Source: Streptomonospora litoralis (GTDB lineage: Bacteria; Actinomycetota; Actinomycetes; Streptosporangiales; Streptosporangiaceae). From it: DNA of 64,000 nt. Under the pieces are notes generated by a model that worked only from the letters and a program-made list of their open reading frames with translations, ran no database searches and was not told the DNA's origin. The number at the start of each line of letters is the position of its first letter. Positions within the stretch are counted from its first letter, which is position 1. The stretch spans positions 3,963,101 through 4,027,100 of the forward strand of contig NZ_CP036455.1 of NCBI RefSeq assembly GCF_004323735.1, given 5' to 3'. A program made the translations under genes and the position numbers. This document shows positions 31,644 to 52,027 of the stretch, one piece after another.

Positions 31644-31646
31644 CCG

Positions 31647-32594: not shown

Positions 32595-33652
32595 GCACAT
32601 CGGACGTGACCAAGGAGGGCATCCGCGGTGCCCGGCCCGACCGCGAGGCGATGACCGGCGCGGCCTCCACCGTCGACGGGCATCGGCACACCGGGCCGGG
32701 CGACCGCGGCGCGGGCTCGGAGTTCCGCTCGTATTACAACCAGCCGGTGCTCAACCAGATCGTGTGGCAGCCGCGCGACATCGCCGGGTACTTCTTCCTG
32801 GGGGGTCTGGCCGGTGCCTCGTCCGTCCTCGCGGCGGGCGCCGACCTCACCGGCCGCCCCGACCTGGCCCGACCGCTGCGCTACACCGCGCTGGCGGGTG
32901 TCACCGGCTCGCTGGCGGCGCTGATCAACGATCTCGGGCGGCCCGCGCGGTTTCTGAACATGCTGCGGGTGGTGAAGTGGACCTCGCCGATGAGCGTGGG
33001 GACGTGGCTCCTGGTGGGTTACGGCCCGCTCGCCGGCGCCGCCGCGGTCTCGTCGGCCACCGGCCTGCTGCCGGGGCCGGGCAGGCTCGCGGGCCTGGGC
33101 GCCGCCGCCTTCGGCCCGGCCGTCGCGGCCTACACCGCGCCGCTGATCTGCGACACCGCGGTGCCCGCCTGGCACGACGGCTACCGGGAGATGCCGTTCG
33201 TGTTCACCGGATCGGCCGCGGCCGCGGCCGGAGGCATGGGCATGATCACGGCGCCGGTGGCGCAGGCCGGGCCCGCCCGGCGCGCGGGAGTCATCGGATC
33301 GGTGCTGGAGACGACGGCGATGGAGGCGATGGAGCGGCGCATGGGCATGGTCGCCGAGCCCTACAAGCAGGGGCGCAGCGGCACGGTCCTGCGGGTCGCC
33401 AAAGCGCTGACCGTCGGCGGAGCCGTGGGCGCGCTCGCGGGCGGCCGCAGCCGGACGGTCTCGGTCCTCGCCGGGGCCGCGCTGCTGGCCGGGTCGGCCT
33501 GCACGCGGTTGGGCGTGTTCAAGGCGGGGCAGGCGTCGGCGGCCGACCCCAAGTACACGGTGGTTCCGCAGCGCGAGCGCATCCGCGAGCGCGAGCGGGC
33601 GGCCGAGCACGGACGCGCCATTGGGGAAGGCGGTGCGGAGGAGGGCGCCTGA
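32591..33652 (+). CDS. nrfD: NrfD-like membrane subunit of the formate dehydrogenase complex
   Basis: This 353-residue protein is of the NrfD/PsrC type: several hydrophobic helices, including YFFLGGLAGASSVLAAG, SVGTWLLVGYGPLAGAAAV and ALTVGGAVGALAGG, after a polar 60-residue N-terminus. It should pass electrons from the ferredoxin subunit to menaquinone without haem, replacing the cytochrome b subunit (FdnI) found in enteric FDH-N. The start is taken as TTG at 32591, overlapping the preceding TGA, because GGAGGT lies 6 bases upstream; an ATG at 32651 is a weaker option. A charged Arg/Glu helix ends the protein. Confidence 0.82.
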   Translation: MSTSDVTKEGIRGARPDREAMTGAASTVDGHRHTGPGDRGAGSEFRSYYNQPVLNQIVWQPRDIAGYFFLGGLAGASSVLAAGADLTGRPDLARPLRYTALAGVTGSLAALINDLGRPARFLNMLRVVKWTSPMSVGTWLLVGYGPLAGAAAVSSATGLLPGPGRLAGLGAAAFGPAVAAYTAPLICDTAVPAWHDGYREMPFVFTGSAAAAAGGMGMITAPVAQAGPARRAGVIGSVLETTAMEAMERRMGMVAEPYKQGRSGTVLRVAKALTVGGAVGALAGGRSRTVSVLAGAALLAGSACTRLGVFKAGQASAADPKYTVVPQRERIRERERAAEHGRAIGEGGAEEGA

Positions 33653-33966: not shown

Positions 33967-35406
33967 TCAGCCGGCGAGGGGGGCGGCATCGAGGAACTCC
34001 AGCACCGGTCCGGCGCCCGCTCCCAGCAGCAGCGACGCCGCGGCGGCCGCGATCGCCACGCCCGTGCTCCAGCGCCCGGCGGGCTCGGCGCCGGCGGCCG
34101 CGTCGGCGCCGCAGTCTTCGGCTCCCGGCCGCTGGAACAGCGGCAGGATCCAGCGCAGGTAGTAGAACAGGCTCGCCGCGGTCATGACCGCGGCGAGCAC
34201 AACCAGCCACACCAGCCCGGCGTCGAACGCGGCGGTGAACACGGTGAGCTTGCCGACGAACACCGCGGTCGGCGGGGTGCCGACCAGGCCGAGCAGGCAT
34301 ACCACGAGGCTGAGCGCGAGCCAGGGGCGGCGCCCGAACAGGCCCCGCCAGTCGCCGATCCGCTCCGCCCGGGGCAGCGCGCACACCGCGGCGAACGCGC
34401 CGATGTTGGTGACCGTGTAGGCCGCCAGGTAGTAGAGCAGTCCCCGCAGGGCCTCGGCCGATCCCGCGTAGGCGGCCGCGCCCATCAGCAGGAACCCGAC
34501 CTGGCCGACGGTGGAGTAGGCGAGCAGCCGGAGCACGCCGTCCTGGGCGAAGGCGGCGAGGTTGCCCAGCACCATGGTGGCCGCGGAGACGCAGGCGAGC
34601 AGCAGCGACCAGTCCCCCGCGGCCTCCAGCGGCAGGGCGGCGCCGATCCGGTAGGCCGCCACCAGGGCGCCGATCTTGGGCACCGTGGTGATGAAGGCCG
34701 CCACGGGCGCCGGCGCGCCCTCGGTCGCATCGGGCACCCAGAAGTGCGCCGGCACCGCCCCCGCCTTGAACAGCAGCGCTGCCAGCACCGCGATCGCCCC
34801 GGCGGCAGCGGCGGCGGGCGGCGCCTCGGGCAGCCCGGCACCCAGCGGCGTGTAGCCGGTCGCGCCGCCCGCCGCCAGCAGCACGGTCGTGCCGCCCAGC
34901 AGGACCACGCTGAACAGGGCGCCCAGCAGGAAGAACTTCAGGCTCCCCTCCGTGCCCGGGGCGTCCTTGGCCGCGGCCACCAGCGCATAGAGCGGGATGC
35001 TCGCCAGCAGGTAGCCGACCGCCAGCAGGAGCAGGCCGTTGGCCCCGGCCAGCACCAGCGAGCCCACCGCTGCCAGCAGCAGCAGCACATAGACCTCGGT
35101 CTCGCGGCGGGTTCCGGCGAACCGGTCGGCGGCGGTCAGCACCACCAGCCCGGTGCCCACCAGTACGGCGGCGCGCGCGGCGTGCAGTCCGGCGTCGACG
35201 GCGTAGCCGCCCGAGGCGACGGTCTGCGCCGCAGGGGCCGCCGCGGCGCCCGTGGCGGCCAGTGCCGCGGCGACGGCGGCCAGCGCGAGCGCGCGCACCA
35301 CCCACTGCCGCCGGCGCGGCAGCCAACTGCCCAGCAGCAGGCCCGCGACTGCGGCGAAGGCCAGTATCCCCTCGGGCAGGAGTCCGATGAGCGTCGTCGT
35401 GGTCAT
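33967..35406 (-). CDS. nuoN: NuoN-like antiporter subunit
   Basis: This 479-residue protein has about 14 membrane helices and the Mrp/NuoN family core. The central channel lysine is present in LLFKAGAVPAHFWVPDATEG, and YSTVGQVGFLLMG matches the second half-channel region. The helix-5 segment reads VGYLLASIPLYAL, where other NuoN proteins have a channel glutamate before SIPLY; here it is Leu. It is the last gene of the eight-gene minus-strand operon and starts 13 bases after NuoM. In complete complex I it pumps protons; in this reduced complex ion translocation is inferred. Confidence 0.82.
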   Translation of the reverse strand: MTTTTLIGLLPEGILAFAAVAGLLLGSWLPRRRQWVVRALALAAVAAALAATGAAAAPAAQTVASGGYAVDAGLHAARAAVLVGTGLVVLTAADRFAGTRRETEVYVLLLLAAVGSLVLAGANGLLLLAVGYLLASIPLYALVAAAKDAPGTEGSLKFFLLGALFSVVLLGGTTVLLAAGGATGYTPLGAGLPEAPPAAAAAGAIAVLAALLFKAGAVPAHFWVPDATEGAPAPVAAFITTVPKIGALVAAYRIGAALPLEAAGDWSLLLACVSAATMVLGNLAAFAQDGVLRLLAYSTVGQVGFLLMGAAAYAGSAEALRGLLYYLAAYTVTNIGAFAAVCALPRAERIGDWRGLFGRRPWLALSLVVCLLGLVGTPPTAVFVGKLTVFTAAFDAGLVWLVVLAAVMTAASLFYYLRWILPLFQRPGAEDCGADAAAGAEPAGRWSTGVAIAAAAASLLLGAGAGPVLEFLDAAPLAG

Positions 35407-35419: not shown

Positions 35420-36979
35420 CTACCGCAGCACCAGGTCGGCCACGGCGGAGGCTGCCGGGGCGACGACGTCGAGCAGCGTATGCGGCAGCAGCCCGATGAG
35501 CACGGACAGCGCGAGCAGCGGCACGACGGCCGCGCTCTCCTCGGCCCGCAGGTCGCCGAAGCCGCCGCCGGCGCCCGGCGGCAGCCGGAGTCCGCCCAGC
35601 AGCAGCCGCTGGAGCGCGCGCAGCAGCAGCGCGGCGGTGATCAGGATTCCCGGCAGCGCCAGGGCCGTCTGCACGGGCAGCAGGCCCAGTCCGCCGGTGA
35701 AGATCTGGAACTCGGCGATGAACCCCGAGAGCCCCGGCAGCCCCAGCGAACCGAAGGCGGCCACCGCAAGCACCGCGGCGAAGCGCGGGGCCGGAGTGGC
35801 CAGCCCGCTGTAGGAGCCCATGTCGTAACCTCCGCCGCGCTCGTAGAGGACGCCGGCGAGCAGGAACAGCGCTCCGGTGAGCAGGCCGTGGCTGACCAGT
35901 TGCACCGCCGCCCCGCTGACGGCGAGCCCGGCTGCGGCCGGAGCGGCACCGCCGGATCCGGCCGCCGCCGTCCCGGCCGCGCCCAGGCCCAGCAGCACAT
36001 AGCCCATGTGGTTGACCGAGGTGTAGGCGACCATGCGTTTGAAGTCGCTCTGGGCCAGAGCCACCAGCGCGCCGTAGAGCACCGAGACGGCTCCCACGGC
36101 GGCGATGCCGGGCGCCCATGCGCTCCAGGCGTCGGGCAGGATCGGCATGGCGATGCGCGCGAATCCGTAGGCGCCCATCTTCAGCAGCACCCCCGCCAGG
36201 ATCGCCGATCCGGCGGCGGGCGCGTCGGTGTGCGCGGGCGGCAGCCAGGTGTGGAAAGGCACCAGCGGCGTCTTCACGGCCAGCCCGATCCCGACGGCCA
36301 GCAGCACCGCGCCGCCTGCGAAGGCGCGTCCGTCGAGCGGGGTCCTCCGCGCCAGCTCGACCATGTCGAAGGTGTGCGGGTCCGCGGCGAGGTACAGGCC
36401 GATGAACCCCACGAGCAGCGCGAGCGAGCCGACGAAGGTGTAGAGGAAGAACCGCAGCGCGGACCGAGCGGGGTTGCCGTGCCCCCATCCCGCGATGACG
36501 AAGTACATCAGCGCGATGGACAGGTCGAAGAAGACGAAGAACAGCAGCAGGTCGAGAGCGGCGAAGAGTCCGGTGGAGACGGTCTGCAGGGCCAGGAACA
36601 GCGCCGTGTAGCCGCGCATCCTCGGCTGCCGCGCGCGCAGCGAGTAGACCGCGCAGGCCAGGAACAGCACAGCGGTCATCGCCACCAGCGGCAGGGAGAG
36701 CCCGTCGACGCCGATGTGGTAGCCGGAACCGAGGCTGGGGATCCACTCCAGGTCCGTCTCATAGGCGATCGGTCCGGCGGGTCCGGCGGGGCGGTCGGCG
36801 GTGTCGGCGGCCCCGGGATCGGCAGCGGCGTAGTAGCCGATCCACAGCAGTACGACCAGCACCAGCTCGATCCCGGCCACCGCGATCCACACCGCCGCCA
36901 CGGCCCGGTCCGCGAGCCGCGGCAGCACCGCCAGCACACCTGCGGCCAGCAGGGGGAGGAAGACGACGACGGAAAGCAC
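35420..36979 (-). CDS. nuoM: NuoM-like antiporter subunit
   Basis: This 519-residue, 14-helix protein has the NuoM signatures TPLVPFHTWLPPAHTDAPAA with the adjacent LLKMGAYGFARI, and DFKRMVAYTSVNHMGYVLLG. In helix 5 the usual glutamate of FFELxxxPMYFLI appears to be Asp (FFDLSIALMYFVI), a conservative change. It lies 156 bases after NuoL, the longest gap in this operon. It belongs to the proton-translocating membrane arm. Length and helix count are normal for the family. Confidence 0.85.
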   Translation of the reverse strand: MLSVVVFLPLLAAGVLAVLPRLADRAVAAVWIAVAGIELVLVVLLWIGYYAAADPGAADTADRPAGPAGPIAYETDLEWIPSLGSGYHIGVDGLSLPLVAMTAVLFLACAVYSLRARQPRMRGYTALFLALQTVSTGLFAALDLLLFFVFFDLSIALMYFVIAGWGHGNPARSALRFFLYTFVGSLALLVGFIGLYLAADPHTFDMVELARRTPLDGRAFAGGAVLLAVGIGLAVKTPLVPFHTWLPPAHTDAPAAGSAILAGVLLKMGAYGFARIAMPILPDAWSAWAPGIAAVGAVSVLYGALVALAQSDFKRMVAYTSVNHMGYVLLGLGAAGTAAAGSGGAAPAAAGLAVSGAAVQLVSHGLLTGALFLLAGVLYERGGGYDMGSYSGLATPAPRFAAVLAVAAFGSLGLPGLSGFIAEFQIFTGGLGLLPVQTALALPGILITAALLLRALQRLLLGGLRLPPGAGGGFGDLRAEESAAVVPLLALSVLIGLLPHTLLDVVAPAASAVADLVLR

Positions 36980-37135: not shown

Positions 37136-39109
37136 TCACACCACCGCCGCGACAAGCACGAATACCAGCGCCACCGCCGCGAGGACGGTGACCGCCTGGG
37201 CGTAGTACTGATGGACCTGGCCGGTCTGCGGGCGCCTGGCCCGCGTGCCCAGGGCGCGGGCGCCGGCGGCGAGGGCGGCGATCGCGGACTCCACCGCCGG
37301 TTCGACACGGCGGGCCAGCGCGGCCGAGACGCGGGGGACTCCCGAAGCGGCCCCGTACACAGCGCGGTCCAGCACGCGGTCGTCGAAGGCGGCAAGACCG
37401 CGGGCCGTCGCGAGCACAGGGGTCACCACGGCGACCCGCGCGGCGCGTTCCAGACCCAGCCACGAGCGCGGCCAGCGCACCCACCGGCGATCCGCCGCCC
37501 TGGCCGCCGGTCGCCGAAGGCGCCACGACGTCACGGCACCGAGGACGAGTACCGCGAGCAGACCCGACCCCGCGGCCTGGGCGAGGCCGGGCACGGGCGC
37601 GCCGGGGTGGCCGAGCAGCGCGCTCCACCACGCATGGACTCCCGGCAGCGCGAGCGCGCCCAGGAGTACCGCGGCCGCGGCGAGCGCCGGAAGCGGCAGC
37701 AGCTCGCCGGGAGCCGGCCGGCGGATGCCGACCGCACCTCCACTCCCCGAGGGCACCGCGCCGCCGACCGCGGCCTGCGCACCACCCCCTTTCGGCTCCG
37801 GGCGGCGCCACACCGCGGCCAACGCCACGCCGGCATAACCGGCCGCCAGGGCGGACGCCGCGAGCCCCGCCGTGTGCAGGGCAGCGGGGGCGCCCGCCAG
37901 GACCAGGTCCTCGGCCACCCAAACCGACAGCGGCGGCACGCCGCCGAGCGCAAGCGCGCCGGCTGTGAAGCACCCGCCCGCCACGGGGTGGCGGCGGGCG
38001 GCTCCTGCGAGGCCGGCGAGATCCCGCGTGCCCAGTGCGGCCAGCCAGACGCCGGCGACCAGGAACAGCAGACTCTTGACCGCGGCGTGCGCGGCGAACT
38101 GGGCGGCGCCCCCGGACACTCCCCCGATCCCGGCGGCGAGCACGACGAACCCGAGCTGGGCGCCGGTCGAGGCGGCGAGCAACTGCTTGAGGTCGCGCTG
38201 CGCGCACGCGATTGCGCCCAGGACCACAGCGGTGAGCGCGCCGACCCAGGCCGCCGCGACGGCGGGCCACCCGGTCGCCGCCAGCGCCGGCTGGACGCGC
38301 AGCAGCAGGTAGCCGCCCGCAGCGACCATCGTCGCCGAATGCAGCAGCGCCGAGACCGGGCTGGGGCCGTCCATGGCGCGCGACAACCAGAAGCTGAACG
38401 GCAGCTGGGCGGACTTGCCCAGCGCGGCTACCAGAAGTCCGCCGGCAGCCACATGGTTCCACGGCGCCTCCAGCCCTGCCAGGCCGCTCAGGTCCAGGCC
38501 GGGGACGCCGCCGGCCAGGGCGGCGCCCGCGGCCGCGTACATGCCCAGGTCGGCGGTGCGGGTGGTGATAAAGGAGACGGCGGCGGAGCGCCCCGAGCGC
38601 GGTTCACTGCGGTGGAAGGCGATCAGCCCGTAGGAGGCGGCGCCCATGGCCTCCCAGGCCATGAGCAGAGTGAGCAGGTCGGTGGCGGTGACGGCGGCGG
38701 ACATCGCCGCCGCGAAGAGCAGCAGCAGCCCGTAGTAATGGGCGCCGTAGCGGCGCACGCCGTCCGGCGCCGCGCCGGAACGCCCGCCGCCCGACTCGGG
38801 CTCGCCGCGCTCTCCCGCGGAGAAGACCGCGACCGCGGCGAAGACGGCCGCCAGGGTGCAGACGCCGACCGCCGCCAGGCCGTCCACGGCCAGGCCGAAG
38901 GAGATCCCCGGCAGCGCCGGAGCCGTCGCCGTCGGGCGCTGCACGGCCGCGGCCGCGGCCAGGACGAGCTGCGCCGCAGCGGCCGCGACCGCCACCGCGG
39001 CGGCCGCCCGGTCGGCCCGGCGCCCGCACACGAGCAGCGCGGCGCCCGCGGCGGCGGGCAGGCCGACGAGCATCCACAGCAGCGCGTCCCCCGGCTGCAA
39101 CGCACCCAT
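37136..39109 (-). CDS. nuoL: NuoL-like antiporter subunit
   Basis: This 657-residue protein has the NuoL core intact: the channel glutamate in MAWEAMGAASYGLIAF, the lysine in ALGKSAQLPFSFWLSRAMDGPSPVSALLHSATMV, and DLKQLLAASTGAQLGFVVL. The C-terminal 120 residues contain a long amphipathic stretch and a final helix (AVTVLAAVALVFVLVAAVV), consistent with the lateral helix that ties the antiporter subunits together. It starts 4 bases after NuoK. Retention of channel residues argues that the complex still moves ions even though its redox arm is missing. Confidence 0.86.
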   Translation of the reverse strand: MGALQPGDALLWMLVGLPAAAGAALLVCGRRADRAAAAVAVAAAAAQLVLAAAAAVQRPTATAPALPGISFGLAVDGLAAVGVCTLAAVFAAVAVFSAGERGEPESGGGRSGAAPDGVRRYGAHYYGLLLLFAAAMSAAVTATDLLTLLMAWEAMGAASYGLIAFHRSEPRSGRSAAVSFITTRTADLGMYAAAGAALAGGVPGLDLSGLAGLEAPWNHVAAGGLLVAALGKSAQLPFSFWLSRAMDGPSPVSALLHSATMVAAGGYLLLRVQPALAATGWPAVAAAWVGALTAVVLGAIACAQRDLKQLLAASTGAQLGFVVLAAGIGGVSGGAAQFAAHAAVKSLLFLVAGVWLAALGTRDLAGLAGAARRHPVAGGCFTAGALALGGVPPLSVWVAEDLVLAGAPAALHTAGLAASALAAGYAGVALAAVWRRPEPKGGGAQAAVGGAVPSGSGGAVGIRRPAPGELLPLPALAAAAVLLGALALPGVHAWWSALLGHPGAPVPGLAQAAGSGLLAVLVLGAVTSWRLRRPAARAADRRWVRWPRSWLGLERAARVAVVTPVLATARGLAAFDDRVLDRAVYGAASGVPRVSAALARRVEPAVESAIAALAAGARALGTRARRPQTGQVHQYYAQAVTVLAAVALVFVLVAAVV

Positions 39110-39113
39110 CGGA

Positions 39114-39416
39114 TCAGCCCCGCAGGTCGCCGGCCGAGTCGGTCACGTCCACGTCGCGCGCCCGGAAGATCGCGATCGCCACCGCGAAGCCCATCGCCAT
39201 CTCGACCGCCATCGCGAGCATCGCCACCAGGACCAGCACCTGGCCGTCGGGCAGCTGGGGCGACACGTGGAACCAGACGGCGGCCGCGGCGACCATGACC
39301 GCGTTGACCATCAGCTCCAGGCCCATCATGACCATGACGATGGACTGCTGACTCAGCGCGCCGTAGAGGCCGACGGCCAGCAGCGCGGCGGCCAGCAGCA
39401 GGAACGCCTCCAGCAT
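39114..39416 (-). CDS. nuoK: NuoK-like membrane subunit
   Basis: This 100-residue protein has three membrane helices. The two buried glutamates typical of NuoK are kept, in MGLELMVNAVMVA and AMAVEMAMGFAVAIAIF. The ATG overlaps the NuoJ stop (ATGA). With NuoJ, NuoA and NuoH it would form the part of the membrane arm next to the hydrophilic module. The length is normal. Confidence 0.87.
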   Translation of the reverse strand: MLEAFLLLAAALLAVGLYGALSQQSIVMVMMGLELMVNAVMVAAAAVWFHVSPQLPDGQVLVLVAMLAMAVEMAMGFAVAIAIFRARDVDVTDSAGDLRG

Positions 39417-39982
39417 CACCGGCCGACACCTCCGCGGATCGGGTCGTCGCCGCGGCGGGCCCGCAGGTCGTCGCCGTAGCGGTCGTAGCGGCCGCGGTCG
39501 GTCGCGAGCACGACCCCGGCGACCATGGTCGCGAACAGCACCAGTCCGGCGACCATCATCACCAGCATGTGCGGCCCCATGATCGCCTCGCCCAGTTGGA
39601 GCGCGGGATCGGCCGGGGGAGGCGGCGCGGGCGCGCTCGGCCAGGGCACGAGCAGCGCGCCGGCGGCCAGGACGCAGAAGGCGCCGACGGAGATGATCGC
39701 CGCGCCCTTGTTGTTGTGCAGCATCTTCATCGGCATCAGACCGGCCGGGTTCATCATGAACATGATCATGAAGACGGCCATGACGACCATCTCCATGGTC
39801 ATCATCAACACGATCAGCACCCCGAGATAGGACAGGCCGAGCAGCAGCACCGGCACCGCGGTGAAGACGAACGACGCCAGCAGCGCGAACGTGGCCCGGG
39901 CCATGGAGTCGACGCGGAACACCGCGACCGCCGAGGCGACCGCGGCGAGCGCGCAGACGGCGAAGACGATCCACTCGGCCAT
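39416..39982 (-). CDS. nuoJ: NuoJ-like membrane subunit
   Basis: This 188-residue protein has about five helices. ATFALLASFVFTAVPVLLLGLSYLGVLIVLMM matches the NuoJ helix-3 region, usually the most conserved part, followed by a Met-rich stretch (MEMVVMAVFMIMFMMNP). A polar C-terminal tail is rich in Arg and Asp. It begins 8 bases after NuoH, so no room exists for the NuoI ferredoxin that normally sits between H and J. Confidence 0.85.
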   Translation of the reverse strand: MAEWIVFAVCALAAVASAVAVFRVDSMARATFALLASFVFTAVPVLLLGLSYLGVLIVLMMTMEMVVMAVFMIMFMMNPAGLMPMKMLHNNKGAAIISVGAFCVLAAGALLVPWPSAPAPPPPADPALQLGEAIMGPHMLVMMVAGLVLFATMVAGVVLATDRGRYDRYGDDLRARRGDDPIRGGVGR

Positions 39983-39989: not shown

Positions 39990-40922
39990 TCACATCCAAC
40001 CCGCGAGGACGAAGACGGACACCGCGAGCGCCTGCAGCAGCACCAGCGGCAGCAGCACCAGCCAGCCGACCTCGGCGAACCGGTCCATGCGAAGTGCCGG
40101 AAGCCGGCTCCCCGCCCACACCAGCAGCGCGAGCACGGCGGCGGCCTTGAGCAGCGACCACGCCCAGCCCGGCAACAGCGGGCCGGCGCCGCCGCCCAGG
40201 AACAGCGGAACGGCCATCGCGGCAGCGGCGGCCAGCATCAGATGGCGCCCGGCGAGAAGCACCAGCCGGTCGGGACCGGCCGCCTCGGCGGCCGCCCCAC
40301 CCGCGATGTCAGCTCCTAGGGGCTGGTCGAACGGCGGCCGGAAGGACATGGCCAGTGCCGAGACCAGGTAGACGGCGAAGGCCACCGGCATCACGGCCGC
40401 GAACCACACGCCCTGCTGAGCGGCGACGACGTCTCCCACGCGCAGGGAGCCCGCGCCCAGCGCGGCCGTGGTCAGCGCGAACATGTGCGGCAGTTCGTAG
40501 GAGAGGCCCTGGATGACGAAGCGGTAGCCGCCCACCAGGCCCCAGACCGAGTTCGCGCCCCAGCCGGCCGTCCAGAGTCCGGCCCACAGCAGCACCTCCA
40601 TGGCGTTGAACCACACGACGCCGATGGACAGGTCCGCGATGGCGTACCCGCCGACGGGGACGACGAGCACGGCCAGCACCGCCGCCACGGGCACGCTCGC
40701 TGTGCCCAGGCGGCCCAGCAGCGCGTCCGCACCCGGCACCGTGCGGTGGCGGCGCAGCAGCAGGCCGGCGGCCTCCCGGGCGGGTTCGGCCGCCGCCGCG
40801 GCCGCGGGCGCACCAGCCGCCCTGGCCGCCAGCACCGCGGAGCCGGCGGCGGCCGCGTAGGCCAGTGCTGCGAGCAGGGCCGGGGCGATCAGCAGTCCCC
40901 ACCAATGCACGGGCTCAGCCAT
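39990..40922 (-). CDS. nuoH: NuoH-like membrane subunit with altered quinone-proximal loop
   Basis: This 310-residue, about eight-helix protein resembles NuoH in GGYRFVIQGLSYELPHMFALT and RPPFDQP. The segment after PFDQP, which in E. coli NuoH is glutamate-rich (EAEQELADGYHIEYSG), here reads LGADIAGGAAAEAAG, so most acidic residues linking quinone chemistry to pumping are gone. The ERK-type N-terminal loop motif before GPN is also missing. The ATG at 40922 overlaps the preceding gene by 8 bases. It fits the cofactor-free neighbour and suggests a complex that no longer reduces quinone. Confidence 0.8.
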   Translation of the reverse strand: MAEPVHWWGLLIAPALLAALAYAAAAGSAVLAARAAGAPAAAAAAEPAREAAGLLLRRHRTVPGADALLGRLGTASVPVAAVLAVLVVPVGGYAIADLSIGVVWFNAMEVLLWAGLWTAGWGANSVWGLVGGYRFVIQGLSYELPHMFALTTAALGAGSLRVGDVVAAQQGVWFAAVMPVAFAVYLVSALAMSFRPPFDQPLGADIAGGAAAEAAGPDRLVLLAGRHLMLAAAAAMAVPLFLGGGAGPLLPGWAWSLLKAAAVLALLVWAGSRLPALRMDRFAEVGWLVLLPLVLLQALAVSVFVLAGWM

Positions 40923-42327
40923 GGGGCGCCTCGTCTTCGGCGGGGCCGCCGGCCGCGTGGTGGGGCGGCGGGACCGCGGCGGGATAGGCGGCGAGCGCCT
41001 CCACGTCGGGGTCGAAGGACGCCACGATGAGCCGCACGGCCGCCAACTCCTGGCCGACGAGCAGCCGGGGCAGCACGTCCACGGCGGCTCGGGCGCCTAC
41101 GGCGCGCTCCCTGCCGAGCGGAGGCGGCTCCGGCGCGGTACCGGCGGCGGAGGCGGCCGTCGCGGGCGGAGCGGCCCCGGCCGCGCCGTCACCCGGTTCG
41201 CGCCCACGGCGGCCGGCGCGGGCGGAGAAGCGCGCACGGCGCGGCGACCGCCGCTGGATGGGCGGGGCCAGAAAGGTGTCGAAGGTGTCGGGCACGAGTA
41301 CCGCGGCGATGTCGTCCAGCCACCGCGCCATGCGGGCCGGCACATCCCCGCGCAGGCGTTCGGGAAGTTCGTCGGGAGCCGGCCCCAGTCCGCGCAGCGA
41401 CCACCGCAGAAGCCGCGACCCGCGCACCCGGCGCAGCCAGCGGGTGAAGCGCACCCGCCCGGTCACCCCGGCGTCCGGAGCGAGAAGGGTGTCACGCAGC
41501 AGCCTCCCGGTCGCGGCGGCGTCCGGCCAGCCGGCGACAGCGAGGAGCCGCTGCAGCGAATCGGCGGCGGCGGCCGCGCGGATGCGCTCCGGCACGAGTC
41601 CGTGGCCCGCCCGGGCGTCGTGGTCCCAGAAGGCCGCGACGCCGGGCGGCGCCGACAAGGTGGACACGCGTGCGTCCTGCACCACGTCCCCCTGCACCGT
41701 CAGCTCGGCCACCAGCCCCGCGGGCCAGTCGGCCTGGACGGGGCCGAAGGCGATATGCAGGCGGTCCAGCCGCAGCCCGTCCCGGTCGTCCCCGCGATCG
41801 GCCATCACCAGGCCGCCGGGCAGCTCCATGTCTGGGTGGCCGTGGTGGCCGTCGTGTTCGCCGTCGTGCTCGCCGTGTTCCCGGGCATCCGCGTGGTCGC
41901 CGCCGTCGTCGGTGCCCGGCTCGGCGTCCGCGTCGTGCGCGGGAGTGTGCTCGGCGCCCTGCTGATCACCACCGCCGCCGGGTTCGACCGCGCGCCGCGC
42001 CGCCGCGCGGCGCTGCTCGGAGGCATCCAGCAGTGCGGCGCGCGCCTCGTCGAGGCGGGTGGCGGCCTGGGCGGGCACTTCGACGCGGACGCGGGCGCGC
42101 GGCTCGCTCATCTGGTCCCAGACCCGGTCGGCCGCCTCGTCCAGCGCTGTGCCCGCGGGGCCGCACTCCACCAGCGTGTCCGCCTCGCTCGGGCCGAGTG
42201 CCCGCCGCACGCCGCTCTCACGCAGGACACGCTCCACGGCCAGACGGCTCGCGGTGCCGCCCGGGGCGGTCACCACCAGCGGCCGCGGGACCGAAGCGCG
42301 CAGCAGCCATCGGAGGGGACCCGTCAC
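40915..42327 (-). CDS. NuoB/NuoD-like fusion protein lacking cofactor and quinone-site residues
   Basis: This 470-residue protein lies where nuoB, C and D normally stand. The N-terminal part resembles NuoB: GPSEADTLVECG and VWDQMSEPRARVRVE parallel the NuoB segment leading to YDQMPEPKWVIAMG, but no CC pair, GxCA or GCPP cysteines for cluster N2 are present. After a His/Asp/Glu-rich linker (about residues 165-190), LDRLHIAFGPVQADWPAG parallels the NuoD GPQHPAAHG region without its histidines, and VLPRLLVGQELAAVRLIVASFDPDVEAL parallels the NuoD C-terminus. The GTG start at 42327 overlaps the NuoA stop. A scaffold role is inferred. Confidence 0.72.
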   Translation of the reverse strand: MTGPLRWLLRASVPRPLVVTAPGGTASRLAVERVLRESGVRRALGPSEADTLVECGPAGTALDEAADRVWDQMSEPRARVRVEVPAQAATRLDEARAALLDASEQRRAAARRAVEPGGGGDQQGAEHTPAHDADAEPGTDDGGDHADAREHGEHDGEHDGHHGHPDMELPGGLVMADRGDDRDGLRLDRLHIAFGPVQADWPAGLVAELTVQGDVVQDARVSTLSAPPGVAAFWDHDARAGHGLVPERIRAAAAADSLQRLLAVAGWPDAAATGRLLRDTLLAPDAGVTGRVRFTRWLRRVRGSRLLRWSLRGLGPAPDELPERLRGDVPARMARWLDDIAAVLVPDTFDTFLAPPIQRRSPRRARFSARAGRRGREPGDGAAGAAPPATAASAAGTAPEPPPLGRERAVGARAAVDVLPRLLVGQELAAVRLIVASFDPDVEALAAYPAAVPPPHHAAGGPAEDEAPHG

Positions 42328-42674
42328 GTCCACCTGAAGGCCCCCTCCCGCCAGGCGTAGACGACCGCGACGACCAGCACCGCCAGGAAGCCGAACATCT
42401 CGGCGACGGCGTGCACACCCTTCTCCGCGACGACGAGCACCCACGGGTACATGAAGACCATCTCCATGTCGAAGGCCAGGAAGAGCAGCGTCACGGCGTA
42501 CCAGCGGACGTGGAAGCGCGAGACCGCGTGCTCGGTGACCGGAACTCCCCCCAGGTACGGCTCCCGCGACAGCGGAGCTCCGCCGACGCCGACCAGCGCC
42601 GCGGCGCCGTAGACGCCCAGCACGCCGGCGACGGCGACGGCGAGCAGGGCGAGCGCGGGCCAGAAGGAGTCCAT
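42324..42674 (-). CDS. nuoA: NuoA-like membrane subunit
   Basis: This 116-residue protein has three helices. RFHVRWYAVTLLFLAFDMEMVFMYPWVL contains the conserved acidic pair of NuoA, and GGVPVTEHAVSRF matches the loop that reaches the quinone site, though the conserved Cys region there is absent. The ATG at 42674 has GGGAGG about 10 bases upstream; a GTG three codons earlier lies too close to that site. It is the first gene of the truncated complex I operon. No clear promoter is recognisable in the 197 bases upstream; a CACGATCGTG palindrome occurs at 42775-42784. Confidence 0.86.
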   Translation of the reverse strand: MDSFWPALALLAVAVAGVLGVYGAAALVGVGGAPLSREPYLGGVPVTEHAVSRFHVRWYAVTLLFLAFDMEMVFMYPWVLVVAEKGVHAVAEMFGFLAVLVVAVVYAWREGAFRWT

Positions 42675-42871
42675 CCGGATCACGCCTCCCGTCTCTGTCG
42701 GCGCCTGCGGCAGCACGCCGCCGCGGCGGCCGCCGTGCGCCGGGCCGCTATCCCCGCGCGGCACCGACTATGCCCACGATCGTGCCGCCCCTGGAGAGCC
42801 TTCCCCCGCCGACGCGCCGTATCGGGGACTCCCACTTGCTCGGGCCGCCCCCACCGCCGGAGGCTCGCGGA

Positions 42872-43330
42872 TCACTCCTGGTTGCGGAACTCCTGGATAC
42901 GGCGGGCGACGCTCATCTCCACCGCCGCGCCGAGCAGGTACACCAGGGAGCCGAGGAAGCCGCCTACCGGCCAGGCGAGCGTCGCCGGCAGCAGGACGCC
43001 CGCAATGGCGGCGGCGCCGACGGCCAGCCCGATGGAGGCGAAATTCAACGAACTGCCGAGGGCGATCACCTTGGTGGCCTCGGAGTCGTCGATGGGCCGG
43101 GTGAAGCCGCGCGTCGCCAGCAACTCGACCGCCGCGAAGCTCAGCACCGCCCCGAGCAGGAAGAGGAACACCTGGCCGATGTCCGGGCTGCGGTAGACGG
43201 CGCTCAGTATCGCCAGAGCCCCGGTGATCATCACGGAGTACCCGTATGCTCCCGAGTTGTTGCGCAGCGCCAGCCGCAGTTCGCGCAGATACAGCGCGTG
43301 GGAATCCCTCGGTCCGCTTCCGCCCGTCAC
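42872..43330 (-). CDS. Membrane protein of unknown function
   Basis: The product is 152 residues with four hydrophobic segments (SVMITGALAILSAVY, VFLFLLGAVLSFAAVELLA, VIALGSSLNFASIGLAVGAAAIAGVLL and PVGGFLGSLVYLLGAAVEMSVA) and a charged C-terminus. I do not recognise a family. The GTG at 43330 has GGAG 8 bases upstream; the longer open frame to 43432 is Arg/Pro-rich and probably untranslated. It is on the same strand as the nuo-like operon, 197 bases upstream of it, but probably separately transcribed. Confidence 0.65.
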   Translation of the reverse strand: MTGGSGPRDSHALYLRELRLALRNNSGAYGYSVMITGALAILSAVYRSPDIGQVFLFLLGAVLSFAAVELLATRGFTRPIDDSEATKVIALGSSLNFASIGLAVGAAAIAGVLLPATLAWPVGGFLGSLVYLLGAAVEMSVARRIQEFRNQE

Positions 43331-43564
43331 AGTGGTACTCCGTGCCTTCGTCGCGTGCGCCTTCGGCCCGGGATCGGGGCTCACCGCGCTCGCGCGCTCC
43401 GCGCGGAGCTCGGCGGGGCGCCGGCGGGGCACCCTATCCCGCGCCCAGCTTAGGAGGGCCGTTCACCGCGTGTCCGAATCCCGGCACCGTCGGTGTGGCA
43501 GCTAGGGCGGGTGCCGGTGGAAACCGCATCTCTATCGGTGGGCTGCACGGGTAGCGGGGCGACC

Positions 43565-44500
43565 ATGCGAGCTTTGGTCACCGGCTGGTTCGGCTTCCTG
43601 CACGGCGAGGCGACCGCGGGCGACGCGGGGGCGGCCGCGGCCGTCAGTGCGGCGCTGCGCGAGGCGGGTATCGCCCACGACGTCGGCCGCAGCCCCAACA
43701 CCCGTATCGACGGGCCGGTCCTGGACGACGTATCCCCTGACGACTACGACCACCTCGTCTTCGTCTGCGGCCCGGCGCACGGCCGGCAGGTACGCGAGCT
43801 GCACGCGCGGTTCGCCCGCTGCCGCCGCATCGCCGTCGGCGTCTCGGTGGTCGATCCGGCCGACGAGGCCGTGCGCGGATTCCACACCGTCGTCCCGCGC
43901 GACGGCGCCACCCACGCGCCCCTGCCCGACCTGGCCGTCGCCTCTCCCTACGCCCCGGAGGTACCGGTGGTCGGGGTGACGCAGGCCCCGGGCCAGCCCG
44001 AGTACGGCGACCGGGGTGACCACGCCGAGGTGCACGCCGAACTGGCACGCTGGCTGACGACGAAGGACTGCGCACGGGTCCCCCTGGATACCCGCCTGGA
44101 CACCTCGGATCCGGAGCACTGCGCCACCTACACCCAGTTCGACGCGCTCGTGCGCCGCGTGGACCTCGTCGTGACCACCCGCCTGCACGGCCTGGCGCTC
44201 GCGCTGCGCAACGGCGTCCCGGCCGTCGCGGTGGACCCGGTGGTCGGCGGCGCCAAGGTCAGCGCGCAGGCGTACGCGCTGGGCTGGCCCGCCGTCGTGG
44301 CGGCCGACGAGGAGAACCGGGGCTCGCTCGGCTTCCACGCGCGCCTCGACGCCCTGTGGGACTGGTGCCGCTCCCCGGCCGCGCGGACGCGCACCGGATG
44401 GGCCGCCGCGATCGCCCGCGGGCGCTCGCCGCTGGTCGAGGGCCTGCTGGACGCGCTGGCGCGGTCCGATGCCCGCCGCGGCGACCTGCAGGAGGCGTGA
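43565..44500 (+). CDS. Polysaccharide pyruvyl transferase family protein
   Basis: This 311-residue GT-B-like protein has the pyruvyl-transferase superfamily signature TTRLHGLALALRNGVPAVAVDPVVGGAKVSAQA at about residues 201-233 and an N-terminal glycine-rich strand-loop (GWFGFLHGEATAGDAG). Family members attach pyruvyl ketals to sugars of cell-wall polymers or act as related glycan-modifying enzymes. ATG 43565 follows a GGGG-rich site. It stands alone, 88 bases before an SDR gene. The substrate cannot be inferred; no wall-polymer cluster is nearby. Confidence 0.75.
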   Translation: MRALVTGWFGFLHGEATAGDAGAAAAVSAALREAGIAHDVGRSPNTRIDGPVLDDVSPDDYDHLVFVCGPAHGRQVRELHARFARCRRIAVGVSVVDPADEAVRGFHTVVPRDGATHAPLPDLAVASPYAPEVPVVGVTQAPGQPEYGDRGDHAEVHAELARWLTTKDCARVPLDTRLDTSDPEHCATYTQFDALVRRVDLVVTTRLHGLALALRNGVPAVAVDPVVGGAKVSAQAYALGWPAVVAADEENRGSLGFHARLDALWDWCRSPAARTRTGWAAAIARGRSPLVEGLLDALARSDARRGDLQEA

Positions 44501-44588
44501 ACGTACGGCCGCCGCGGGCACGGCTCGGCATAGCCGGTGAAGACCCGGGTAGCGGCCTGTGGCGTATTCGATGCGGAGGGGGCCGAGG

Positions 44589-45614
44589 ATGGCCGAACAT
44601 GCCAGAGTCGTGGTGATCACCGGGGCGAGCGGCGGAGTCGGCCGCGCCACCGCCCGGGAGTTCGCGTCGCGCGGCGACCGCATCGCGCTGCTCGCGCGCG
44701 GCGAGGAAGGACTCGCCGGTGCCGCCGAGGACGTCCGGCAGGCGGGCGGCACGCCGCTGGAGGTGCCGGTCGACGTAGCCGACGCCGCCGCCGTCGACCG
44801 CGCGGCCGAGCGCGTCGAGGCGGAACTGGGCCCCGTGGACGTGTGGATCAACGACGCTTTCACCGGCGTGTTCGCCCCGGTCCGCGACATCGAGCCGGAG
44901 GAGTTCCGGCGGGTCACCGAGGTGGCCTACCTGGGTTACGTCTACGGCACCAAGGCCGCGCTGGCGCGCATGCTGCCAAGGGACAGGGGCACGATCGTCC
45001 AGGTGGGTTCGGCGCTGGCCTACCGCGGCATCCCGCTGCAGTCGGCGTACTGCGCCGCCAAGCACGCGGTGCAAGGCTTCCACGAGTCGCTGCGGTGCGA
45101 ACTGCTGCACGACGGCTCCGGCGTGTCCACCACGATGGTGCAACTGCCCGCCATGAACACCCCGCAGTTCGAATGGGTGCTGTCGCGGCTGCCGCGGCAT
45201 ACGCAGCCGGTACCGCCGATCTACCAGCCGGAGATCGCCGCCCGTGCCATCGCCCGCGCCGCCGACCGCCCGCGGCCGCGCGAATACCTGGTGGGCGGTT
45301 CCACCGTGCAGACCGTCCTGGGCAACCGGCTGGCGCCGTGGCTGCTCGACCGGATCCTCGCCCGGTCCGGCTACGCCTCGCAGCAGACGGCCGAGAAGCG
45401 GGAGGCTCGTGCACCGGCCAACCTGTGGCGCCCCGCTGACAGCGCCGACGGCCGGGACTACGGCGCGCACGGCTCGTTCGACGACCGCGGCCGCGCCGTC
45501 AGCGTCCAGCAGTGGGCCGCCCGGCGCAGCGGGCGGATCGCCGCGGCCGCACTCGGCACCACGGCGGCCGCCGGCGCGGTCACCTGGCGCCTGCTGCGCC
45601 GATCGAAGAAGTAG
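44589..45614 (+). CDS. Short-chain dehydrogenase/reductase with C-terminal membrane helix
   Basis: This 341-residue classical SDR has the nucleotide motif TGASGGVG at about residues 12-19, the catalytic Ser in QVGSALAY, and Tyr154/Lys158 in YCAAK. The core is followed by a roughly 80-residue extension ending in a hydrophobic helix (IAAAALGTTAAAGAVTWRLL) and basic RRSKK, which would tether it to the inner face of the membrane. GGAGGGGG precedes the ATG. It belongs to the large group often labelled SDR family oxidoreductase; the substrate is unknown. Confidence 0.82.
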   Translation: MAEHARVVVITGASGGVGRATAREFASRGDRIALLARGEEGLAGAAEDVRQAGGTPLEVPVDVADAAAVDRAAERVEAELGPVDVWINDAFTGVFAPVRDIEPEEFRRVTEVAYLGYVYGTKAALARMLPRDRGTIVQVGSALAYRGIPLQSAYCAAKHAVQGFHESLRCELLHDGSGVSTTMVQLPAMNTPQFEWVLSRLPRHTQPVPPIYQPEIAARAIARAADRPRPREYLVGGSTVQTVLGNRLAPWLLDRILARSGYASQQTAEKREARAPANLWRPADSADGRDYGAHGSFDDRGRAVSVQQWAARRSGRIAAAALGTTAAAGAVTWRLLRRSKK

Positions 45615-47772: not shown

Positions 47773-48807
47773 ATGCTGGCCGCACGACATCTGACGAAAC
47801 GCTACGGCGATACCACCGCCGTGGACGATCTCACCTTCGAGGTACACCCCGGCCGCGTCACCGGTTTCCTCGGCCCCAACGGGGCGGGAAAATCGACCAC
47901 GTTTCGGCTGCTGCTGGGCCTGGACCGGCCCAGCAGCGGCGAGGCGCTGGTGGGCGGCCGCCGCTACGCCGAGATCGCCCGGCCCGCCCAAGAGGTCGGC
48001 GCGCTGCTGGACGCCTCGGCCGCCCACCCGGGACGCAGCGCCCGCGCCCACCTGCTGGCACTCGCGCGCGGCAGCGGGATCGCGTCGCCGCGTGTCGCGC
48101 GGGTGCTGGAGACGGTGGGGCTTTCCGAGGTCGCCGGCAAGCGTGTCGGCGGGTTCTCACTGGGCATGCGCCAACGGCTGGGCATCGCCGCCGCCCTGCT
48201 GGGCGACCCGGCGACACTGGTCTTCGACGAACCCGGCAACGGCCTGGACCTCGACGGCGTGCTTTGGGTACGCCGTCTGGTGCGCGAACTCGCCGACGAG
48301 GGCCGCACCGTGTTCTTCTCCAGCCACCTGATGAGCGAGATGCAACTGGTGGCCGACCACCTCGTGGTCGTCGGACGCGGGCGGCTGGTCATCGACGCGC
48401 CGATGGCCGACGTCATCGACGCCTGGTCGCGCACCCGGGTGACCGTGCGCACCCCCGACACCGCGCTGCTGGCCGGGCCGCTGCACCGATCGCGCACCGC
48501 TGCGGGCGAGCCCGTCGAGGTGCAGGCCGGCGCCGGGGGCGAACTGCTGGTCCGCGGACTCGAACCGGAACAGGTCGGCGAACTCGCACACGCCGCGGGA
48601 GCGCGGGTGCACACGCTGTACCGCGAGCAAGGGTCGCTGGAGCGGGCCTACCTCGAACTCACGGAGAACGCACCGCAGTACCGCGCCGAGGGGGCAGACC
48701 ACCGGGACTCCGGCGGGGCGGGCGGCGCGGACCGTGCGGCACACGCCGGGGCGCACGATCCCGCGGCGACGGCCGTGCGGCAACCGGATCGGCAGGAGCA
48801 CCGATGA
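47773..48807 (+). CDS. ABC transporter ATP-binding protein (module 1)
   Basis: This 344-residue ATPase has Walker A GPNGAGKSTT near residue 37, a signature reading GGFSLGMRQRLG in place of LSGGQ, Walker B LVFDEPGNGLDLDG, and the switch SSHLMSEMQ. It resembles the ATPases of DrrA/CcmA-like exporters. The C-terminal 90 residues form an extra domain and a polar tail. It overlaps its permease by ATGA. It is a clear paralogue of the ATPase gene at 55606, with long shared stretches. Drug, peptide or lipid export is possible; the cargo is unknown. Confidence 0.87.
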   Translation: MLAARHLTKRYGDTTAVDDLTFEVHPGRVTGFLGPNGAGKSTTFRLLLGLDRPSSGEALVGGRRYAEIARPAQEVGALLDASAAHPGRSARAHLLALARGSGIASPRVARVLETVGLSEVAGKRVGGFSLGMRQRLGIAAALLGDPATLVFDEPGNGLDLDGVLWVRRLVRELADEGRTVFFSSHLMSEMQLVADHLVVVGRGRLVIDAPMADVIDAWSRTRVTVRTPDTALLAGPLHRSRTAAGEPVEVQAGAGGELLVRGLEPEQVGELAHAAGARVHTLYREQGSLERAYLELTENAPQYRAEGADHRDSGGAGGADRAAHAGAHDPAATAVRQPDRQEHR

Positions 48808-49646: not shown

Positions 49647-49665
49647 GCGGAGATCCGCCGTATCC

Positions 49666-49702
49666 GCGGGCGGCCTCCGGCCCGGTGCCGGGGGCCGCCC
49701 GC
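49666..49702. terminator. Bidirectional terminator
   Basis: GCGGGCGGCC (49666-49675) pairs with 49693-49702, and inner CCGG words extend the stem. It lies between the convergent permease and hydrolase genes. Confidence 0.65.
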
Positions 49703-49707
49703 ACGTG

Positions 49708-50997: not shown

Positions 50998-51171
50998 GCC
51001 CGGCATCATCGCCGCGAGCCGCCGGTCCGCGCATGAACCGGAGGTCGGCCGGATGTTACCCCTTTGGGCATAGGCAGGGGCCGCCGGTCGTCGTCTCACC
51101 CCGCGGAGAGGGGGTCCGGGCCGGCTGCGCAACGACCGCCCCCGGGGGCCCCGGGGGCGGGGTACCGCGGC

Positions 51172-51864: not shown

Positions 51865-51990
51865 GCTTGCGCACCCCCGAGCCGCTCTGTTTCCCGGCGA
51901 CGCACGCAGCCTATCGCCGATCGAGCGGCGCACGGCGCCGTCCCGGTTCTCCAGCGGTGCAGAGCGCGAAGGCGATGCGGCCACCCTTCC

Positions 51991-52020
51991 TTGACATGCA
52001 AGCAAGGACTTGCATATACC
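51991..52020 (+). promoter_or_regulatory. Promoter with embedded ArsR operator, leaderless gene
   Basis: TTGACA (51991-51996) and TATACC (52015-52020) are 18 bases apart. The spacer is the perfect repeat TGCAAG-N6-CTTGCA (51997-52014), extending one base each side. The GTG at 52028 lies 7 bases after the -10, where transcription should start. A bound ArsR dimer would cover both promoter elements. Confidence 0.65.
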
Positions 52021-52027
52021 TGGACAT

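Follow-up and report, generated by a model that had tools for sequence, protein, structure and literature searches.

An eight-gene cluster related to respiratory complex I

The window, a 64,000-nucleotide stretch of the Streptomonospora litoralis genome, carries on its minus strand eight genes in the order nuoA-X-nuoHJKLMN, and on its plus strand a convergent set of formate dehydrogenase genes. X encodes a fused protein with a NuoB-like part, a linker and a NuoD-like part. The features are listed below.

28407-33652, plus strand: genes for formate dehydrogenase (FdhA, FdhB) and an NrfD-like protein, running convergently to the cluster, a linkage shared by some relatives only
33967-35406, minus strand: NuoN-like antiporter subunit; TM5 Glu lost, TM12 Lys kept
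35420-36979, minus strand: NuoM-like antiporter subunit; retains TM7 Lys and TM12 Glu, with Asp in place of the TM5 Glu
37136-39109, minus strand: NuoL-like antiporter subunit; retains TM5 Glu and TM7 Lys, with Glu in place of the TM12 Lys
39114-39419, minus strand: NuoK-like subunit; both membrane Glu kept
39416-39982, minus strand: NuoJ-like subunit, Met-rich (composition and alignments)
39716-39736, minus strand: NuoJ loop after TM3 (residues 83-89); M83, M85, M87 and H89 invariant in 28 aligned sequences
39752-39832, minus strand: NuoJ TM3 (residues 51-77); invariant Met 60, 61, 65, 68, 72, 76 and 77, and Glu 64
39990-40922, minus strand: NuoH-like subunit (Pfam NADHdh, 1.3e-42)
40915-42333, minus strand: X, fused NuoB-like/linker/NuoD-like protein, 472 amino acids, GTG start
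40987-41802, minus strand: NuoD-like part of X (about residues 178-449), GPQHPxxHG histidines absent (profiles, fold, relatives)
41803-41982, minus strand: linker of X, rich in His, Asp and Glu (about residues 118-177) and modelled mostly with low confidence
42064-42288, minus strand: NuoB-like part of X (about residues 16-90), without N2 cysteines (profiles, AF2 secondary structure)
42324-42716, minus strand: NuoA-like subunit (the longer frame 42324-42764 matches Pfam Oxidored_q4 at 1.6e-24)

An earlier note on this DNA had described X as one chain, and the peptides it quoted and the His/Asp/Glu-rich linker are all present on the minus strand. It read the frame as 40915-42327 (470 amino acids). 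The GTG at 42333 (472 amino acids) is the likelier start, because in 47 of 47 loci a start codon is available from which X overlaps the nuoA stop by the same 10 bases. This count comprises 38 of 40 loci in a first batch, scored by a script that favours starts close to this position, 7 of 7 in a second batch, and two loci (L094 and L095) that were misframed in the first count and corrected on re-reading. X is apparently translationally coupled to nuoA.

X was found in 27 of 394 sampled Actinomycetes, one of them with a fragment, and a scan of genome contigs returned a single locus. The complete A-X-H-J-K-L-M-N set is present in 42 of 47 loci, some clusters are located on plasmids, and three genomes hold two divergent copies. 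Relatives also occur in the Pseudomonadota (Halomonas, Sulfitobacter and Roseovarius). The NuoB-like and NuoD-like halves are split only in Sulfitobacter, whereas in Roseovarius both halves and the HMBD domains between them form a single open frame with an internal annotated start. An alignment of 39 X proteins contains 24 invariant residues, including the start methionine. The locus L094, with a run of N and a broken frame, was left out of the X alignments and linker counts; L097, a fragment without neighbours, was left out throughout, and L141 duplicates L087.

X resembles NuoB and NuoD

X is almost certainly NuoB/NuoD-like. Searched against the PDB, the X profile retrieves NuoB chains with E-values starting at 3e-4. 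With matches accepted to E 1, the NCBIfam NuoB family is hit by 29 of the 39 X proteins, the best at 4.4e-5, and hhalign of X against NuoB gave 91.7%. Sequence and fold both place the N-terminal part with NuoB. The Pfam family Oxidored_q6 is matched by one of the 39 (0.29), and stays under its cut-off in the proteobacterial relatives too, where shown. For the C-terminal part, Complex1_49kDa is matched by 7 of the 39 at E up to 1; the best value of 0.013 is weak for the actinobacterial proteins alone, and the assignment is carried by Foldseek and by the relatives in Halomonas (2.7e-7), Sulfitobacter (4.4e-13) and Roseovarius (1.3e-12), all above the cut-off. The profile of the actinobacterial X proteins also recognises these three, with values between 1e-25 and 2e-6, whereas the best of 120 shuffled sequences reached 0.58. 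In the same Pfam scan, GGDEF_2 is matched by 3 of the 39 proteins (best 0.0036), without support elsewhere.

In the Foldseek check, 49-kDa/NuoD chains ranked first and NuoB chains were also listed; no match had E < 0.001 and TM-scores were low, though the probability was 1.00. Pfam returned no useful match for the window X alone, hhalign against actinobacterial NuoC and NuoD gave nothing significant, and neither did a PDB search with the C-half profile (best 0.66, an unrelated protein; MbhL 0.95). Chance similarity is ruled out by the profiles, the fold and the relatives taken together, so the likeness proposed in the earlier note stands.

Mbh, formate hydrogenlyase and Fpo belong to the same superfamily, and the C-terminal half of X weakly matches MbhL (E 0.065) and FpoD (best 0.0014; 5 of the 39 proteins with E no higher than 1). 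Compared with [NiFe] hydrogenases, most X proteins have too few cysteines for NiFe or Fe-S sites, and none is invariant. Judged by cysteine number, the two NiFe CxxC motifs are lacking, as 40 of the 50 X proteins counted have fewer than four cysteines.

Redox sites are lost while most of the ion path is kept

Like respiratory complex I, the cluster encodes homologues of NuoA, H, J, K, L, M and N. Unlike it, the cluster holds none of NuoC, E, F, G and I (the NADH module and Fe-S chain), and the N2 cysteines and quinone-site motifs are gone, as the earlier note had observed for X. The single cysteine of the window X aligns to an alanine of NuoB, and no cysteine is invariant in the 39 X proteins. 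By alignment and scan, no histidine occurs in the stretch of the window X equivalent to the NuoD GPQHPxxHG motif; nine relatives have an unrelated histidine there, in the form GP...HWP. When 41 X-type NuoH sequences were aligned with canonical NuoH, both the GPNRxGP quinone loop and the ETNRxPFDLxE motif were found to be lost. A separate canonical nuo operon is present elsewhere in the same genome. We are confident that the complex is no longer an NADH:quinone oxidoreductase.

The lysines and glutamates of the ion path are retained in NuoL, NuoM, NuoN and NuoK with few exceptions. Across 41 X-type clusters, NuoL keeps its Glu and TM7 Lys in all and its TM12 Lys in 40, the window (Glu) being the exception. 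NuoM has Asp in place of the TM5 Glu in 41/41, with its Lys and Glu each kept in 41/41. The two membrane Glu of NuoK are found in 41 and 40 clusters, respectively. NuoN keeps the TM12 Lys in all 41 and the TM7 Lys in 37, and has lost the TM5 Glu (Leu in 40/41). The canonical set for this comparison omits L176, to which the gene caller gave a wrong order, and L174. These patterns support one of the two roles put forward for X in the earlier note, a NuoB/NuoD-like cap that lacks cofactors and sits on a membrane arm translocating ions.

Methionine-rich NuoJ and the insert of X

NuoJ differs from its complex I counterpart in being rich in methionine. Its methionine content is 7.9-11.9% in the 41 X-type clusters and 1.7-4.1% in 13 canonical ones (means of 10.3 and 2.9, respectively), and 16 alignment columns are at least 85% Met in the X-type set compared with 2 in the canonical set. 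L176 was dropped from the canonical Met columns and range, but was still part of the canonical set in the calculation that gave the X-type mean. Fourteen methionines are invariant over 28 aligned sequences (taken from the 41 X-type clusters) with a mean identity of 57%, and Met 61, 65, 68, 72 and 76 share one face of TM3. The enrichment in all 41 clusters, including that of the window, favours a soft monovalent ion, Cu or Ag.

The insert between the halves of X, a second difference from complex I, is apparently metal-binding, as judged from its composition. Linkers of many relatives contain MDHG-type Met/His repeats, and HMBD domains, five or two, stand at the same place in the alphaproteobacteria Sulfitobacter and Roseovarius; the two kinds of insert are mutually unrelated. 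They lend support to the suggestion of a metal-binding linker in the earlier note. At least five methionines occur in 19 of 49 linkers, and 13 of 49 have three histidines or fewer, which means that not every X has a metal-binding insert. The window linker has two methionines and is rich in His, Asp and Glu, a composition that would suit metals other than copper too. Linkers at copper-flanked loci have more methionines (median 6, n = 17) than the others (median 3, n = 32; p 5e-4, kinship ignored).

Copper genes in the neighbourhood of the cluster

No copper genes were seen beside the window's own cluster. At least one copper marker is found at 16 of 47 X loci and at 2 of 32 control stretches placed arbitrarily within X-bearing genomes (Fisher p 0.005, kinship ignored), a count inflated because the markers were chosen from the X loci themselves and some score themselves; one of the two positive controls (L173) shares a 45-kb contig with an X cluster. 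By type, multicopper oxidase occurs at 8, DUF305 at 6, HMA at 4 and CsoR at 3 of the 47 loci, and none of them in the 32 controls. Pfam annotation of 220 X-neighbour genes includes nine DUF305 and eight multicopper oxidase proteins; neither family is among the 25 listed, down to two members, for 126 of 127 control genes (the giant ORF of L151 was left out).

In a Curtobacterium, an HMA gene, a P-type ATPase and nuoA-X-HJKLMN follow one another on a single strand, and the clusters of Halomonas and Sulfitobacter lie in copper islands. Some X loci hold genes for ArsR/SmtB, a cadmium transporter or general heavy-metal ATPases. Among 12 plasmid loci viewed, three (L100, L102 and L194) have no annotated metal genes. 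On plasmids chosen because metal genes lie near X, such genes also turned up in two of seven control stretches. For Kocuria flava, the copD copper genes are reported to sit in a region apart from the nuo genes (PMC6002675). The copper-gene neighbours of many relatives, the Met-rich NuoJ, the lost NuoH quinone loop and the HMBD domains are the strongest evidence and go beyond the earlier note.

A putative proton-coupled, metal-handling complex

Taken together, these sequence features suggest that the complex probably handles metal, with copper the most likely ion. We lean slightly towards a non-redox, proton-coupled copper-handling complex built on the complex I membrane arm. The eight gene products would form an arm that has given up NADH and quinone chemistry and acts instead on a soft metal, with Cu(I) the likeliest ion. 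X would cap this arm at the place of NuoB and NuoD, its insert replacing cluster N2 and the quinone site. Cytosolic Cu(I) would be captured by the insert and cross a remodelled NuoH/X chamber before reaching NuoJ, with its Met-lined TM3 and Met/His loop. This movement would be coupled to proton flow through NuoL, NuoM, NuoN and NuoK. The direction would most likely be outward, because copper-detoxification genes lie beside the cluster in many relatives. Proton-driven export as such is a reading to which we give a little under even chances. More tentatively, the antiporter arm may drive, or be gated by, Cu(I) moving along the NuoJ methionine ladder, with the NuoB/NuoD pair as metal receptor.

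Known Cu(I) efflux systems include the CopA/CopB P-type ATPases with Met/His-rich N-termini; CusA has a methionine path, and Ctr1 an MxxxM helix. The cluster is like efflux systems in its Met/His or HMBD segments, its Met-lined membrane helix and its gene neighbours. No homology is claimed, and in contrast to them it would run on proton flow through antiporter subunits.

A different metal (Zn, Ni, Co, Cd or Ag), or different metals by clade, is unlikely: the Met-poor linkers of the window clade could bind Zn or Ni, and the ArsR/SmtB, cadmium transporter and general ATPase genes noted above would fit, but NuoJ is Met-rich in every cluster. A degenerate relic is highly improbable. The catalytic residues of NuoB, NuoD and NuoH are indeed lost, yet the eight genes stay together, the nuoA overlap is general, X and NuoJ hold invariant residues, and the cluster spreads on plasmids and persists as divergent copies; the 'structural relic' of the earlier note is contradicted by this conservation across the family and by the mobility and apparent coupling of the gene.

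It is quite improbable that the complex is a redox proton pump fed by a partner such as the neighbouring formate dehydrogenase (FDH)/NrfD, with X as docking cap. FdhA and/or FdhB-NrfD adjoin the cluster in the window and at L032, L033, L035 (same strand, directly upstream) and L093 (same strand, downstream), none of the 32 controls holds any of the three, and in a set of 60 relatives FDH occurs in 9 of the 10 genomes with X and in 25 of the 50 without it. However, within the stretches fetched, these are a few of 47 loci; in five X-bearing genomes (G005, G015, G021, G028 and G030) FDH is distant or on other contigs, and two members of the same genus, G002 and G003, have FDH but lack X. The Fe-S ligands, quinone histidines and NuoH quinone loop are also gone, and NrfD-type subunits can themselves serve quinone. 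As an obligatory partner, FDH is rejected.

A Na+/H+ or pH-homeostasis module that serves life in marine or saline settings is likewise improbable. In the parts of the literature consulted, nuoA, H, J, K, L, M and N are described as marine-adaptation genes, and a seven-gene partial NDH-1 operon as horizontally acquired in Salinispora (PMC3314556, PMC6002675, PMC4018334). This patchily distributed 'NDH-1 partial 2' (Penn and Jensen 2012, PMC3314556) has the same seven membrane genes, a list that recurs in Kocuria and Streptomyces (PMC6002675; PMC4018334), and compared by gene lists alone it is very probably the same cluster. The retained ion-path residues agree with the sodium/proton role proposed there, but the accounts, as far as consulted, mention no gene between A and H, and hence not X, and no metal link. 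Cluster-bearing isolates include soil, river-sediment and sputum sources, which rejects a marine-only role, and the Met-rich NuoJ, the HMBD or Met/His inserts and the copper neighbours are left unexplained. The open-access literature searched yielded no link of the operon to copper and no name for X.

How chemistry at NuoB, NuoD and NuoH is coupled to proton movement in the distant NuoL, NuoM and NuoN is a long-standing question for complex I. If the copper-handling reading is true, the arm has been kept while its redox head was swapped for a metal-binding one, and coupling can be driven by something besides quinone. It would also add a new bacterial route of copper handling, a secondary pump derived from complex I and spread by plasmids across Actinomycetota and Pseudomonadota. 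Such a route would be easily overlooked, since the records viewed annotate most cluster genes as subunits of NADH dehydrogenase or complex I, and X mostly as a hypothetical protein.

Protein X joins NuoB-like and NuoD-like parts

The gene for protein X lies between nuoA and nuoH in a cluster with the order A-X-H-J-K-L-M-N (hereafter X-type). The cluster genes, as delimited from reading frames, and the fdhA gene are as follows.

40915-42333, minus strand: X
42324-42716, minus-strand cluster: NuoA
after X, ending at 33967: NuoH, NuoJ, NuoK, NuoL, NuoM and NuoN
28407-31643, plus strand: FdhA

The genome (5.8 Mb, an actinobacterium) also carries a canonical nuo operon elsewhere.

The proposal that X is a fusion of NuoB-like and NuoD-like parts is borne out by several searches. 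Searched against the PDB, a profile of 11 X proteins picked up NuoB chains through residues 34-82 (E from 3e-4) and, over the C-half, MbhL (E 0.065). When 39 X proteins were scanned singly against family models (E up to 1), 29 matched the NCBIfam NuoB family (best 4.4e-5), 7 matched Complex1_49kDa (best 0.013) and 5 matched FpoD (best 0.0014); a further match, to GGDEF_2 in three proteins (best 0.0036), is backed by no other result. A profile built from all 39 had matches at E up to 0.001 in 287 of the 393 class genomes, a figure that takes in the X-bearing ones; most of the weak matches among those listed span positions 41-79, and many sit in frames of about NuoB length. With the AlphaFold2 model of X (pLDDT 81, pTM 0.78), Foldseek had 49-kDa/NuoD chains at the top (probability 1.00, E 8e-3) and NuoB chains also among its matches; no match had an E of 0.001 or better, and the TM-scores were low. 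Neither a PDB search with just the C-half profile nor hhalign of X with actinobacterial NuoD gave a significant match.

Relatives on proteobacterial plasmids settle the identity of X as NuoB plus NuoD. Roseovarius X is a single 672-codon open frame (L190:6186-8204) with two HMBD domains (2e-30) and Complex1_49kDa at 1.3e-12; the start annotated on the Roseovarius indicus plasmid is internal, and the frame opens 450 bases earlier, taking in the NuoB-like part (Oxidored_q6 0.036, below cut-off). Sulfitobacter X is split over two overlapping frames, the NuoB-like part (Oxidored_q6 0.0012, below cut-off) and a part with five HMBD domains and Complex1_49kDa at 4.4e-13. The fused Halomonas X matches Complex1_49kDa at 2.7e-7. 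The actinobacterial X profile matches these relatives at 1e-25 to 1.6e-6 (best of 120 shuffled sequences, 0.58). As the earlier note had observed, neither an N2 cysteine nor a quinone histidine is left in X, and it is certain enough that X is a cofactor-less NuoB/NuoD cap.

The ion path is largely retained

The NuoH proteins of X-type clusters have lost GPNRxGP and ETNRxPFDLxE and have gained the conserved segments WFNAM and YELPLMFAL. Among 41 X-type clusters, the ion path residues are present in NuoM (Asp, Lys and Glu, each 41/41), NuoK (Glu, 41/41 and 40/41), NuoL (Glu, 41/41; Lys, 41/41 and 40/41) and NuoN (Lys, 37/41 and 41/41). The TM12 Lys of NuoL is kept in 40 of 41 clusters, the window (37136-39109) being the only one with Glu in its place, and the TM5 Glu of NuoN is replaced by Leu in 40 of 41. 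Judged from these residues, the ion path is largely retained; as the redox motifs are gone, the arm should still move ions without the quinone-reducing parts, in agreement with the ion-translocating membrane arm suggested beforehand.

NuoJ is rich in methionine and the X linker may bind metal

Methionine makes up 7.9-11.9% of NuoJ in 41 X-type clusters (mean 10.3) versus 1.7-4.1% in 13 canonical ones (mean 2.9, or 3.0 if one misassigned entry is taken in). Columns with at least 85% Met number 16 versus 2 in NuoJ, 7 versus 3 in NuoK and 2 versus 5 in NuoH (X-type versus canonical), and the Met content of X-type NuoL, NuoM and NuoN is below canonical. Fourteen Met are invariant in 28 aligned X-type NuoJ proteins (mean identity 57%): M27; M60, 61, 65, 68, 72, 76, 77, 83, 85 and 87, located in TM3 and its loop; and M135, 139 and 142. 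E64 and H89 are likewise invariant. In the NuoJ model (pLDDT 73, moderate), residues 51-77 form a single helix, and Met 61, 65, 68, 72 and 76 fall within an 80-degree face at 100 degrees per residue. NuoJ proteins of Halomonas, Sulfitobacter, Roseovarius, Curtobacterium, Pseudonocardia and Pseudarthrobacter show a similar signature (8.5-11.6% Met). Some X-type NuoJ proteins carry a His-rich C-terminal tail (L073:11853-12497, L188:8895-9521, L191:11004-11672), a possible second metal-binding segment.

The linker that joins the two parts of X has His/Asp/Glu-rich runs in some proteins and tandem MDHG-type repeats in many relatives, and the alphaproteobacterial insert consists of the HMBD domains (five in Sulfitobacter, two in Roseovarius). 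Such unrelated, putatively metal-binding inserts at one site argue that metal binding would be the function. The earlier suggestion of a possible metal-binding linker gains in plausibility, but not as a universal trait: 13 of 49 linkers have at most 3 His. At least 5 Met occur in 19 of 49; at copper-flanked loci the median is 6 (n=17) versus 3 elsewhere (n=32; p 5e-4, kinship ignored).

Copper genes and formate dehydrogenase near the clusters

CopB, CusA and Ctr1 are Cu(I)-handling names that serve for comparison. The X-type complex likely handles a metal, with Cu(I) the most probable; proton-coupled export is our preferred, though unproven, mechanism. We searched copper markers by tblastn near 47 X loci and, as controls, in 32 stretches placed arbitrarily in X-bearing genomes.

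Copper markers near X loci and in control stretches
Marker: X loci; controls
Multicopper oxidase: 8/47; 0/32
DUF305: 6/47; 0/32
CsoR: 3/47; 0/32
HMA: 4/47; 0/32
P-type ATPase: 5/47; 2/32
Any marker: 16/47; 2/32 (p 0.005; biased upward because the markers were themselves drawn from X loci)

Independently of marker choice, Pfam places DUF305 in 7 of 135 upstream and 2 of 85 downstream neighbour genes and multicopper oxidase in 6 of 135 and 2 of 85; both are absent from the 25 families (listed down to 2 members) of 126 control genes. Short-chain dehydrogenases are equally common upstream (7/135). An HMA gene and a P-type ATPase lead directly into nuoA-X-HJKLMN in Curtobacterium; a metal-sensitive regulator, an HMA gene and a P-type ATPase stand 5' of the cluster in Pseudonocardia; multicopper oxidase and CopB occur at the Halomonas and Sulfitobacter loci. 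Twelve plasmid loci were viewed: copper or heavy-metal genes are clear at 7, weaker at 2 (L190, L191) and absent nearby at 3. A second stretch on the plasmids of the 7 held metal genes in 2.

The weak point of the copper reading is the window's own clade, which has formate dehydrogenase (FDH) instead of copper genes. FdhA, FdhB and NrfD-like genes lie downstream of the window cluster in convergent orientation, and FDH is linked to the cluster at four further loci (L032, L033, L035, L093). Of 60 relatives, 10 bear X and 9 of these have FDH, as do 25 of the other 50. Five of the X-bearing relatives have FDH at a distance or on different contigs, and two same-genus genomes have it without X. The window fdhA is a frame without a stop. 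Most full-length family matches at up to 73% identity have one in-frame TGA, likely selenocysteine; none at 74% or above has one.

The seven nuo genes have been published as marine-adaptation genes (PMC3314556, PMC6002675, PMC4018334); the available portions of these papers mention neither X nor a link between the operon and copper, and the Kocuria copD genes are placed in a different region in the portion of PMC6002675 available. A search of an open-access library listed no further paper on the operon.

Distribution and evolution

At E of at most 1e-20, X is carried by 27 of 394 genomes from across the class (one, G272, with a fragment), 10 of 60 relatives (one further weak match left out) and 9 of 120 genomes of the family of G419. 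The G272 fragment (L097:9369-10397) contains in-frame stops and stands alone: no nuo genes turned up in its surroundings. A search of genome contigs gave Streptomonospora sp. PA3 as the sole match. Plasmid occurrences comprise 12 records found via X, two Pseudonocardia plasmids via NuoJ, and Halomonas, Sulfitobacter, Roseovarius and Pseudarthrobacter via NuoM.

All eight genes are detected by tblastn at 42 of 47 loci. Of the other five, L086 and L135 are cut by contig ends, L102 is truncated, and L091 and L093 hold an X that has diverged beyond the reach of tblastn; some NuoL, NuoM or NuoN matches of L039, at a contig end, may be cross-hits. The 10-base overlap of X with nuoA recurs in Halomonas; it measures 4 bases in Roseovarius and in the Curtobacterium annotation. 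A NuoM tree unites the X-type clusters in one clade (support 0.71); the actinobacterial sequences group together within it (0.93), and the three from proteobacteria branch off outside that group. Three genomes have two divergent whole clusters each (G015, L036 and L037; G419, L076 and L077; G441, L138 and L139), the paired copies lying about 0.6 apart in this tree.

The cluster is truncated after X on Rhodococcus oxybenzonivorans pRB29 (L102:11959-13500), and an IS3 element lies within the X region of Pseudarthrobacter defluvii plasmid pA (L191:7608-10063). In the window, a small membrane protein gene lies 5' of nuoA, followed by polysaccharide pyruvyl transferase-like and short-chain dehydrogenase genes (42872-45614), a set kept beside the cluster in two same-genus relatives (L032, L033). 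Further on, two sets of an ABC transporter ATPase and a membrane gene (47773-54514 and 55606-59929), alike by eye, stand near a response regulator and a likely sensor kinase gene; they are possibly a duplication.
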